DNA from: Candidatus Poribacteria bacterium
GTDB lineage: Bacteria; Poribacteria; WGA-4E; WGA-3G
Length of the DNA: 64,000 nt
Assembly (NCBI GenBank): GCA_958295945.1
Contig: OY282386.1
Coordinates: 496,001 to 560,000 of the forward strand
Direction: 5' to 3'
Part shown: positions 10,593-14,800 of the stretch, piece by piece
Numbering within the stretch: position 1 is the stretch's first letter
How the letters are laid out: each line of letters opens with the position of its first letter
Notes under the pieces: model-generated
Databases searched by the model: none
Seen by the model: only the letters and a program-made list of their open reading frames with translations
What the model was told of the DNA's origin: nothing
Position numbers and translations under genes: made by a program

Positions 10593-11294
10593 TTACTTCA
10601 TTTTAAGTTTTCCCCACGTAGTTGTGAGTTTATCTTTCGGTGCAACATCAAACGGTTTTCCAGGACCACCATCTGGTATATTATCACCTATAATTTCAAC
10701 ATTATCAAACCTGGAGCGCGAACCGCCTATAACAAAACCTGCTTGTCCACCACTTAATGGTGCAGGGTCCACCGCTTTAAACACTGTGTCGTCAATATGA
10801 AATTCAAGTGTCCCATCTTCATTTACAATTGCCTTAAGATCATACCAGACTCCCTTTTCAACAACGAAATTGAATACTACTGATCCACCTCCAGGCACAC
10901 CTTTAATGATCCTTGCAGTATTGTGTATATAATCAACCATAAACACATACCGACTATCTTCATCACCTCTATCGTGCAAAGTCAACCCAAATGAGGATTG
11001 ATCTTCTTTATCCTCTTCCAACATGGCACGGCAGGATACACTATAGAATTCCCATTCTATGTCACCAGTAAGCCATAAACTCCAAAAACCTTCAATGAAT
11101 ATTTCCCCAACTGCTTCACCATCATTGATCCACCATTTTTCTAACTGTTTATCTTCATTATATACTTCCCACTCATTTGTTTTATTATCTTCAAAATCGT
11201 CACGCCACGTTCCTGCAAATACTGATGAAATTAGAAAAATTGATAATCCTAACAGAATGAGAGAAATTTTTGAGCGAATACCAATTTTCATCAT
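10593..11294 (-). CDS. Secreted concanavalin-like / 3-keto-disaccharide-hydrolase-like domain protein
   Basis: 233 residues with an N-terminal signal peptide (SKISLILLGLSIFLISSVFA) followed by a single ~190-residue jelly-roll-like domain: GTWRDDFEDN at its start, FGLTLHDRGDEDSRYVFMVDY in the middle, and GGQAGFVIGGSRSRFDNVEI near its end. This order is that of DUF1080/LamG-type laminin-G-like carbohydrate-associated domains. No catalytic residues can be assigned, and the protein may simply bind glycans. A purine-rich AAAGGA precedes the start; a second ATG follows directly, so the exact start is uncertain by one codon. It lies upstream of and in the same direction as the FG-GAP gene. Confidence 0.65.
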   Translation of the reverse strand: MMKIGIRSKISLILLGLSIFLISSVFAGTWRDDFEDNKTNEWEVYNEDKQLEKWWINDGEAVGEIFIEGFWSLWLTGDIEWEFYSVSCRAMLEEDKEDQSSFGLTLHDRGDEDSRYVFMVDYIHNTARIIKGVPGGGSVVFNFVVEKGVWYDLKAIVNEDGTLEFHIDDTVFKAVDPAPLSGGQAGFVIGGSRSRFDNVEIIGDNIPDGGPGKPFDVAPKDKLTTTWGKLKMK

Positions 11295-11308
11295 TTTTTT
11301 CCTTTATC

Positions 11309-11852
11309 AATCTTAGGTGTCAAAACCCCGTTGCTTTAGCTCGGGGATGTAGACACCGCTCCTGTATTGTGTCAAGGAAAAGCCTTGACTTTGTTCAATA
11401 AATGTGGTATTCTGTTCCTATCAACTGGATAGGAGAGCAATCACCTACGTTCTGTAGGTGTCCTATCCAATCCGATTGCTCGGACAGAGTTGATGTTGAT
11501 AACCTCAACAATACCACATTCGGTTGTGTTCATTGCAAGTTGTGATCCTTGCCAGTCGTTTGTGATGAGTTCTGCATTCGCTATATAGGATTGTGTAGGT
11601 GTTCCCTCCACAACTGCGAAATAAACAGAACGCAAAACTAAAGTATCTGGGTCGCTCAGTGGGGCTTCATAAGGACCCTGTTAGTCGTGTCTTGGCGGGC
11701 ACCCACACAGTTGCTGTGCAGGTCAACTTGACTTAAAATCAAGTGAGTATGCTATAAGCATATAAAAGATGCCCACACTTTCAAAAAACGGAGGGTGTCC
11801 GTGAGAAAGTGACCTAAAGGAAACCCCATCCTTTAGGTTGGGGAGCCGTCAT
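11309..11852 (-). mobile_element. Decayed IS200/IS605-like element (TnpB-type remnant, MITE-like)
   Basis: This ~540-bp block has ends typical of IS200/IS605-group elements: on the minus strand one end reads CCCCGAGCTAAAGCAACGGG followed by GTTTTGACA, and the other end contains the hairpin CCCCA-TCCTTTAGGT-TGGGG (11824-11843) followed by AGCCGTCA. Inside is a minus-strand frame (11441-11635, 64 codons, ending AIGLDRTPTERR) that could be the last part of a TnpB; no full TnpB or Y1 transposase TnpA is present. An inner hairpin ACTTGA...TCAAGT lies near 11730-11748. The element ends one base before the stop codon of the helicase gene. Exact boundaries and strand are uncertain because both ends have similar hairpins. 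Confidence 0.5.
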
Positions 11853-14800
11853 TTAATCTACAATGCAGTTATCTTGTATATTTGAATATTGACAAAAACT
11901 ACAATGTGAAAGGTTCTTTTCAAAGCTTTCCTGCTGCATTGAATTAATTATTGTCGTCCACTTCTCTGAAATTTCCTGAAAATCAGTATCATTATAACAT
12001 ACTGTATGATACTCATTCAAAGAAGTATTGAAACAATGGACTGAAATACTTTGTTGTTCAGGATAGGATTTATGTAGTATCTGACAGATAAGTTCCATTT
12101 CAGGTTCATAATTTCTGCCTTCAAACTGTTTATTTGTAGTAAAAATGACTCCATTCCAATTACCAGATTGGTCTTTGAATATTCTGTCAATTCTACATGA
12201 GATTAACTGTCCACACATATTCGCGTGTATAGAACGATATTTTTCTGAATTAGTTGACCTATGTATTATTTCTGCTAATTCAGATCCTTGATAGTTCATT
12301 ATGTGTTCCATAATCCGTTCTCTTTGCTCAGCAGTCAGTGTTTCACTATTCGTATCAGGATAACTCTCAAATGCGCGGTCTATCATACTGTCAAGGTAGT
12401 GTCTATCTTGTCGATCATTAGAACGTAAAAGAACATTACGTACAACATATTCTAATGTCTCATCATTTCTATCAGATTGTAATTTATCAAACGAAGGTAT
12501 TCGTAATATATGTTCTAATTGGTATCGTAATGGACATCTGGCATAATTGGCAAGTTCAATAACAGAATAGGATTTTCCGATGAACTCTTGTTGTAATGTC
12601 AGTGTTGGTAATTTGGGAAACTCTACGTCGTCTTCATCATGAGAGAGTTGTTCAGGAAGTGAAGTTACATCAATTTTATGAATAATTGGTATATTCAGTT
12701 GGACACGATTTCGTATTATGGGTTGATTAGAATACTCAACAACATCCACTTCTAAGTTGACACTTTCATCATCATTATTTATTTCAAGATGTTCAAACAA
12801 CCAATTCAATAAATCGCCTATTTTACCGTAATGATTGAGTGCCCCAGAAAGCACAAGCCGATCTCTTGCTCGTGTGGCAGCGACATAAAACAATCTCTTC
12901 TTTTCTGCTTCATCTTTATCCTTAGCACGCGTCTTCATCATATCTACAATTTCAGGTTCAGATTTTGTATAATCCTCATCAGGTTTAAGAGGACTAAAAC
13001 CGATACCAATCTTTTCATCAATAAATGGTTCAGATGATGAACGGCCACGACGATGAAGGCATGGGAGTATTACAACTGGAAATTCTTTCCCTTTTGATGA
13101 ATGGACTGTCATAATTTCCACTGATCCACTTGTATTTTCTATCGGTGCTTGTCCTTCACGGGGTTCATCAGTGATTAACATGTCTAAAAAAGATATGAAA
13201 TCAGTAAGAGTCTGACTGTTTTCATCACTATCAAATTGTCTTGCAAGGTCTAATAGTTTCTGATAATTTGCAAACCTTTGCTGTCCTTGATGACCTAAAT
13301 TTAATGTTCCAATTAATCCTGTTTCATCGACAACATTTTGTATCAATTGATTCACTGGCATACGGTGTGCATATTGAATCTGATTCTCAATTATCTCAAT
13401 TGCTTTTTGTAATTGTACAGAAGAAGTCTCAAAACATTTTGCCTTCTCCCAGAAACTTTTACCACTTTGAATTGAGATTTCATACAACTCTGTATCAGAA
13501 ATACCAAATGCCGGACCGCGTAATGTACCTACAAGTGAGGTATGATTGTTATCTGGTTTATTAAGAAAATTAAGGTAGTTCCAGATATCATAGATTTCTT
13601 GTCGTTGATAGAAGCCGACACCACCAGTGGTTAGATATGGTATACTTGCAGAAATTAAAGCCTCTTCAAGGTCAGGAAGATGTGTTCTACTACGGATCAA
13701 AATTGCAATGTTCTCATACTTTATGCCATCCGCAACCAAAGTATTTATGTAATGTGCTATAAGTCTATATTCGCTAACTGGTTCATCACCCTTATTCCCC
13801 ATCAAGATTTCTACAGAACCATCTTCGTTGTCCGTACGTGCTTTAGTCAATGCATCAAATGGCACATCGTATTCAGTCTGTGTGCCATCATCCATCAAAC
13901 TTTTAAAAAAGTGATTGACAAATCCTACAGGTTTCCGCAGTGAACGGAAGTTCTCTTTGAGTTCAATATTTTCTCCACCGTTTTCTTCAATAATCGTTCT
14001 TGTTTTATCAAAGATACGCACATCAGCACCACGAAATCCGAAAATGCTCTGTTTCGGATCGCCAACGATAAATAAATTTGCATCTTGAAGTTGATTTGTC
14101 AACAACATAACCAATTCATATTGCACCTCATTTGTATCTTGATATTCATCGATCATGAAGTATTTATGTCGATCTACCAATCTTTTTCGGATGTTCTCAT
14201 TATGTTTTAATAAATCTCGTGTCATCAACTGTAGATCGGTGAAGTCAAGTTTGCCTTGTGCAAGCTTGGTATTTTGGTAGTCGTTTTTGACACTTTTATA
14301 TAGGGTAAACAGATGTTTCGTAGTTTCCAACATAAATAGATCATCTGTTTCTGTATCTTCACTATCAAGTTGTGGAGCAGATTTTATCTTTGTTGCAACC
14401 GATACTAAATTATCAATTTCCTCTTGAAGTTCAGACACATCTACACGACTGCCTAAAAAATCCCTTTTTGCGATTTTATTTTCTGAAGTGGTAATCAAAG
14501 GTGCAATCTCATTCAACAAGTTCCGAACGTCAGGTGAACGTGGATTTCTATCTGATAACATTTCTAATTTTGATCTTAAAATCTCAACTTCGGTGGAGTT
14601 TTTGCCTGTTGCTATCTGCAACACAGAAAACAGTGATTGAAGAAATTCATCAATATCAGTTTCAGAAGGTAACCCCTCAAGAAACGCATCTTTCCACTCT
14701 GTAGGTAATTCACCATTACTGCTACCTGCATAAATACTGCCTAAGAGTGGATCAACTATATCCCGTTTTTCTATCAGAGTTGAGAAAAGATCAAATAATT

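Follow-up and report, generated by a model that had tools for sequence, protein, structure and literature searches.

The TnpB nuclease is regarded as the ancestor of Cas12, and the TnpA transposase of IS200/IS605 elements needs the element ends only. Standalone (trans) omega-RNAs have been reported for IscB, miniature IS605 elements of the PATE (palindrome-associated transposable element) type are also on record, and IStrons combine an IS605 element with a group I intron. In ISDra2, the 3' end of tnpB gives the guide RNA, which comes from the right end, its last 16 nt matching the flanking DNA and acting as the guide, and the transposon-associated motif (TAM) is the insertion target; IS605 elements move as single strands (both from the excerpt consulted of PMC8612924). 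One view, given in the excerpt of PMC10278001, is that TnpB is guided by the omega-RNA to those versions of the RNA's own locus that have no element. Here, we looked at a stretch of 64,000 nt from Candidatus Poribacteria bacterium (assembly GCA_958295945.1, contig OY282386.1, positions 496,001 to 560,000), called the window below, which contains a 544-bp miniature element with IS200/IS605 ends, no tnpB gene and a homologue of the omega-RNA. We consider it likely that this element supplies a solo guide RNA, which a TnpB encoded elsewhere would use in trans for the element's own retention.

With the ISDra2-type omega-RNA (or right-end element RNA, reRNA), as that excerpt presents it, the locus shares a scaffold made of the tnpB 3' end and the right end, a presumed guide in the right flank and a short TAM equal to the target. 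It differs in having no tnpB, in a promoter-like sequence about 220 nt upstream of the scaffold, and in two further structured domains on the 5' side and one extra hairpin on the 3' side. Like the standalone omega-RNAs of IscB and the PATE elements, it would combine a guide RNA without a nuclease gene with miniature IS605 ends, but here the RNA is that of TnpB and belongs to a repeat family with covarying extra domains. IStrons likewise have IS605 ends around a structured RNA. The element is a TnpB-less IS605 element with a long covarying RNA in which an omega-RNA is contained. Among the titles and abstract beginnings listed by our literature searches, none concerned TnpB miniature elements with an omega-RNA or a structured tnpB leader; the small part of the searching that was aimed at the leader returned no description of one among the matches listed.

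The source genome (G000) is a single contig of 5.34 Mb, and a DNA search with the element gave 20 matches in it, 13 of them full length (E<=1e-143) and 83-99% identical. When these copies were aligned with their flanks, the common sequence ran from directly after TTAT (C at 11308) through GTCA at 11851. The features discussed below are, with coordinates in the window and all on the forward strand:

11304-11307, forward: TTAT target motif, presumed TAM, found before the left end in the copies and also before the L023 tnpB element.
11308-11851, forward: whole element, from the 13 full-length copies, the alignment boundaries and the unoccupied site in one relative.
11316-11357, forward: left-end hairpin GGTGTC..CCCCG..CTTTAG..CGGGG..GACACC.
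11326-11346, forward: left hairpin, CCCCGTTGCTTTAGCTCGGGG, from the sequence.
11385-11413, forward: sigma-70-like promoter TTGACT-17-TATTCT, its second hexamer preceded by TG, from a pattern scan and the copy alignment.
11420-11510, forward: 5' leader domain, from covariation and from the same architecture before tnpB genes (permutation tests).
11420-11426, 11488-11494 and 11495-11501, forward: leader strand S, copy 1 and copy 2.
11436-11441 with 11475-11480, forward: leader kissing loop, AGCAAT with ATTGCT.
11511-11640, forward: middle structured domain, covarying helices 7-9 lying within 11569-11631.
11634-11800, forward: omega-RNA scaffold, homologous to the L023-type tnpB 3' end.
11777-11810, forward: extra covarying hairpin (helix 15) between scaffold and right end, not seen in 20 tnpB 3' ends.
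11824-11843, forward: right hairpin, CCCCATCCTTTAGGTTGGGG, from the sequence.
11824-11851, forward: right-end hairpin with terminus, GAGCCGTCA, from the sequence and the 13-copy alignment.
11852-11867, forward: predicted 16-nt guide in host DNA past the right end, by analogy with ISDra2 (PMC8612924, in excerpt).

Subterminal imperfect hairpins are thus present at both ends, as a first-pass annotation of this DNA had claimed, and its coordinates, 11309-11852, lie within one base of those given by the copies. The left end is 83-93% common to the left ends of the tnpB elements L016/L041 and L023/L040 and is found in other miniature elements as well; a short repeat with such an end and without a shared reading frame is a non-autonomous element of the miniature inverted-repeat transposable element type. 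The annotation was also right that nearly all of the tnpB coding sequence is gone, since what survives is the 3' end from codons K-V-S-G onward, which is the RNA-like part. Its short C-terminal-like frame, on the other hand, is not a conserved reading frame: none exists across 16 element copies, in which the open frames vary and are displaced from copy to copy; the longest, with 111 codons between stops, is present in L027, L028 and L029 only. A small conserved protein is ruled out by this variation.

A further mark of the family is that it inserts 3' of a short fixed target and does not duplicate it. TTAT directly precedes the left end in 13 of the 13 copies, and the unoccupied site in the relative G016 is consistent with the absence of duplication, the boundary being uncertain by 1-2 bases owing to divergence. 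In G016 (the same sequence is in JAJECK010000061.1), the helicase stop is followed by a short spacer with a ribosome-binding site and by the next start. The element occupies this spacer, antisense to both genes and beside the helicase stop codon, and AAAGGA remains before the start of the next gene. Since the element sits in a short spacer between two co-directional genes, its position beside the helicase gene, earlier called unusual, is an ordinary one.

The omega-RNA was identified by its homology to tnpB 3' ends. In a DNA search of 59 genomes, the element matched at E=4.3e-4 the 3' end of a tnpB gene 74% identical to L023, the gene presented below as the possible partner. A covariance model, R1, was built from 16 of 20 L023-type tnpB 3' ends, a few of the 20 coming from broken or partial genes, with no miniature element included. 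Over the 64-kb window, R1 gave one strong match, 11634-11800 on the forward strand (E=2.5e-9), the next (0.07) being the end hairpins. In a search over 41 loci, the other 12 copies of the source genome were each found at E<=5.4e-7 and the relatives' copies L045-L048, L063 and L064 at 1e-9 to 4e-5, with L065, which is cut by a contig end, at 0.0049 and L066 at 6.7. Values of 1e-5 to 2.4e-4 were obtained for the tnpB loci L014, L017 and L022 and of 5e-4 to 5e-5 for the other miniature elements L037-L039, while L016 reached 0.07 and L011-L013, L015 and L018-L021 at best 0.18. The 16 matches in the source genome correspond to the 13 element copies, the intact L023, a broken tnpB (L022) and L043. 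Judged by this homology in sequence and structure to tnpB-linked omega-RNAs, the element carries a guide-RNA scaffold closest to the L023 TnpB lineage. An exact 20-base pattern of the RNA core had no match in the genome contigs scanned, from which near records may be omitted.

A search of 11200-11950 against Rfam returned 8 chance-level matches up to E=10, none of them near its gathering score, which rules out a known Rfam RNA as the identity of the element. No group I intron family was among them, nor was HEARO, the IscB omega-RNA, no search for an IscB partner having been made. One of these matches, HgcC, touches the right-end region of the element at E=2.6, below its gathering score. Below threshold, HgcC was also seen at L034:1247-1369 (E=0.27) and L017:2090-2181 (E=0.47), the right ends of the element and of a tnpB; HgcC might share the right-end fold.

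A candidate partner is present in the same genome. PF01385 gave 14 matches there, two being pieces of one broken gene, and L023 is the only match to L023-type tnpB at E<=1e-40. L023 is open over 434 codons and has the Pfam OrfB_IS605 and Cas12f1-like TNB domains; among solved structures, the chains that score best with it are those of an AI-designed RNA-guided nuclease, of Cas12f and of TnpB-type transposase proteins. By eye, acidic residues occupy the RuvC positions, the usual RuvC-II glutamate seems absent (IVIGDL), and a glutamate stands six residues before the first CxxC, an arrangement described as 'Ealt' TnpB in the excerpt of PMC10711439. Catalysis by L023 is therefore plausible.

The first-pass annotation had suggested that a non-autonomous derivative could keep a guide-RNA region for a TnpB elsewhere, and had proposed aligning it with full-length TnpB elements and looking for a conserved flanking motif. 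L023 has a similar left end and a homologous 3' end and the motif is conserved, so that the R1 match, the intact L023 and TTAT are all in line with the suggestion. As we picture it, a tnpB-less member of the IS200/IS605 family has retained the left end, promoter, 5' leader, omega-RNA and right end. Transcription from its own promoter would give an RNA of ~430 nt running through the right end into host DNA, its last ~16 nt being the guide. A TnpB from elsewhere (in the source genome, the single intact L023 gene) would bind the omega-RNA part, recognise TTAT as its TAM with the flank serving as the guide, and cut copies of the locus without the element. Repair after the cut would restore the element, which would gain retention without encoding the nuclease. 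A second, uninterrupted site, with exact TTAT followed by the flank of the window copy, was not found in the source genome.

We then consider the predicted RNA. The promoter would start it at ~11420. The -35 and -10 boxes are recognisable with a spacing of 17 nt in 13 copies by alignment (8 of the 13 verified by pattern); the boxes carry base changes and the spacer varies. The pattern scan found 2 such promoters in the region for 1.5 expected, which is not significant alone, and the pattern was not found in L048. The structure model has 91 base pairs, including one pseudoknot, and was evaluated on 16 sequences. It was drawn from the window copy while the other copies could be seen, a procedure that favours it (including against the control designated b) in the comparisons that follow: 94.3% of cells were paired against 86.8 ± 0.4 in shuffles, 35 pairs had two-sided changes against 18.5 ± 2.5, and the covariation score was 0.245 against 0.114 ± 0.007, slid versions reaching at most 0.073. 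Further pair types were less clear (56 versus 50.5 ± 2.6, reached by 15 of 500 shuffles), and helix 1 was the weakest, with 76.8% of cells paired. Examples of compensation are GTTCTG/CAGAAC versus AAGTTTG/CAAACTT and ATGC/GCAT versus CTCC/GGAG. By eye, the middle domain resembled a remnant of tnpB N-terminal codons, a reading ruled out by an nhmmer profile of 7 tnpB 5' coding regions, which found no match in 11511-11640 (best in the window E=0.35, elsewhere).

The 5' leader of this RNA has counterparts before many tnpB genes of several families. Their common design is a strand S, hairpin 1, hairpin 2 and then a directly repeated sequence, both copies of which are complementary to S and the second of which lies at the tnpB start or a short way before it; in L023 the design reads ACATTGCT..AGCAATGT..AGCAATGT-ATATC, with the ATG inside the second copy. 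Within each element, one side of hairpin 1 is matched by the loop of hairpin 2, and the sequences of the pair vary from element to element (TTTCA/TGAAA, TTCTA/TAGAA, TGCCA/TGGCA, CAACCAAG/CTTGGTTG, CGTCAA/TTGACG and others). From 31 upstream stretches, two being loci under other names, 15 relatives' leaders were used, and the leader-bearing tnpB loci are L011, L012, L014-L018, L023, part of L052-L103, and L137. The unused stretches (for example L081-L083, L085, L087, L088, and likewise L091, L097, L100, L101, L105-L107 and L138) had no recognised leader, followed another gene (such as tnpA) or were too short; the leader is thus not before every tnpB examined.

For the kissing pairs, we excised the loop segments manually, at positions homologous between leaders and knowing the structure, and kept 21 of 29 leaders as non-redundant, dropping the near duplicates L017, L018, L090 and five further miniature elements. 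On these segments, own-pair runs summed to 129, the largest of 20,000 permutations being 98, and runs of at least 5 bases occurred in 18 of 21 own pairs versus 6.7% of swapped pairs. For S and its copies (21 of 27 leaders, every run of at least 5 counted as a copy), the own total was 330 nt, the largest of 20,000 permutations 234, and at least 2 runs were present in 18 of 21 leaders versus 25% of swapped pairs. The leaders of L014, L016 and L076 are without two copies, the copies in L018 lie away from the expected place, L079 is without the first hairpin, and the kissing runs of L011, L016 and L093 have only 4 bases. Outside the permutation test, L037, L039, L148 and L152 have runs of 5, 4, 4 and 4, with no convincing kissing. 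Judging from their position, these pairings may control tnpB translation; one possibility is a bistable switch, locked by the kissing loop, in which S has either copy 1 or the start-proximal copy 2 as its partner.

In the miniature element, S, its two copies and the kissing loop are all retained without a start codon to control, and copy 2 pairs with a third strand. It is possible, although we hold this tentatively, that the RNA is a composite of the translational-switch leader of a tnpB mRNA, in its locked form, and an omega-RNA, and that such elements are hyperparasites which borrow TnpB and escape or disturb its dosage control.

A simpler explanation, which we find unlikely, is that of an ordinary miniature element moved by a transposase in trans, in which only the ends matter and an internal deletion has left the leader and omega-RNA behind as inert remnants. 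This would need no partner TnpB, and some relatives do have the element without a detected partner. However, leftovers are expected to decay, whereas the omega-RNA is still there in all 13 copies down to 83% identity, the interior has two-sided compensatory changes and the promoter boxes are recognisable.

It is less probable still that the RNA acts mainly as a decoy or regulator of tnpB, its leader competing with that of the tnpB mRNA for one regulator and guiding being secondary or lost. The leader architecture of tnpB mRNA, with its covarying stems, is indeed kept without an open reading frame to regulate, and the altered guide-proximal region might impair guiding. Yet the kissing loop of the element, AGCAAT/ATTGCT, differs from the TTTCA/TGAAA of its partner L023, and direct RNA-RNA competition is therefore not expected. 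The omega-RNA scaffold is conserved too, and no kissing loop was seen in two solo elements of a genome of another family (L148 and L152 of G043).

Selection of the interior as single-stranded DNA for excision or circle formation by TnpA, rather than as RNA, is very improbable: IS605 elements do move as single strands and the bias of G-U over A-C is weak, but the R1-matched part is the tnpB 3' end, the guide-RNA source in ISDra2, the same leader precedes tnpB start codons, and TnpA needs no more than the ends.

Several observations weigh against the solo guide RNA that we favour. The R1 scores are modest, 41-54 bits for the element (41-51 for the copies of the source genome) versus 152.5 for L023, some tnpB loci of other families reaching 17-35 bits; the omega-RNA is therefore nearest to the L023 lineage but diverged. 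In tnpB elements the right end directly follows the scaffold; here, the hairpin at 11777-11810 and an altered terminus intervene, and they could block TnpB loading. As to a TnpB or TnpA with matching ends, for which the first-pass annotation had asked, L023 has a similar left end and TTAT in front, but its right end, GAGTATGTCA, differs from GAGCCGTCA, and no TnpA with ends matching the element was found in the source genome. The cells with G-U versus A-C, 40 versus 28, give little preference to the forward strand as the one that folds, and within the omega-RNA part the order is reversed (6 G-U versus 14 A-C); these counts are not decisive and were dropped for the choice of strand. Finally, the same element is present in G009, G014, G002 and G032, and three of these, G002, G009 and G032, have it without an L023-type tnpB at E<=1e-40. 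These three are drafts of 94-95% completeness, and in G009 a strong R1 match at a contig start suggests that tnpB was cut off by the assembly. G002 is without a PF01797 match.

Solo elements were also found in a genome of another family. Across 35 genomes, R1 had matches in 21. The linkage count covered 73 of 97 R1 matches (those of G042, G044, G045 and G046 were not typed) together with 17 tnpB matches; the unlinked class includes contig-edge cases such as L162, with tnpB codons upstream, and the linkage reading is therefore limited to G000 and G043. In G043, a single-contig Poribacteria genome of another family, 1 of 10 R1 matches lies beside an L023-type tnpB and 9 do not. Among the 8 of these 9 loci that were read, six have the order left end, leader, omega-RNA, right end (L148-L152 and L154), L148 keeping a short 5' tnpB piece between leader and omega-RNA, and two have tnpB remnants (L147, L153). 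These solo elements share with the window element the left end, the leader, an omega-RNA of the L023 lineage, the right end and the absence of a complete tnpB; unlike it, they have the leader joined almost directly to the omega-RNA, with no middle domain, and are probably of separate origin. Solo omega-RNA elements thus probably have two or more origins.

If deletion derivatives become solo guide elements sharing one nuclease, this would resemble a step toward a CRISPR-like arrangement of separate guide loci with a common effector. Because one genome holds 13 candidate guides but only one TnpB of the lineage that matches best, use in trans is directly testable. In the same way, an enzyme that makes double-strand cuts could be held in check through the tnpB leader, whose kissing loop and pair of competing strands near the start codon suggest a mechanism open to test.

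On the transposase side, PF01797 proteins occur in 49 of the 59 genomes searched, no ends matching those of the element being seen in the three regions of relatives that were read, and no TnpA-bearing autonomous parent with the ends of the element was found. The one good Y1 protein of the source genome, L009 (G000:C1:1609796-1610140, 168 aa), stands among repeated CGCTCCGCTGGAGCG palindromes and looks like a REP-type (repetitive extragenic palindromic) transposase; it was ruled out for this family since its flanks carry these other palindromes. Related ends occur elsewhere in the genome. At L042 (G000:C1:656694 region), a left end stands by itself, and its outer arms make up a long palindrome (TTATCCATTTCATTCGGTGTC ... 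GACACCGAATGAAATGGATAA). L037 and L039 (G000:C1:1389638-1389744 and 4265875-4265981) are miniature elements that share the element's left end and contain GGCACGAGAGACGGAAGCAGGAA, which the L011-L014 TnpB family also has at its 3' end, and are candidates for a second class of solo guide elements. L043 (G000:C1:1211504 region) is a miniature element with a different interior of ~600 nt, the 3' part of which matches R1 at E=5.3e-7.
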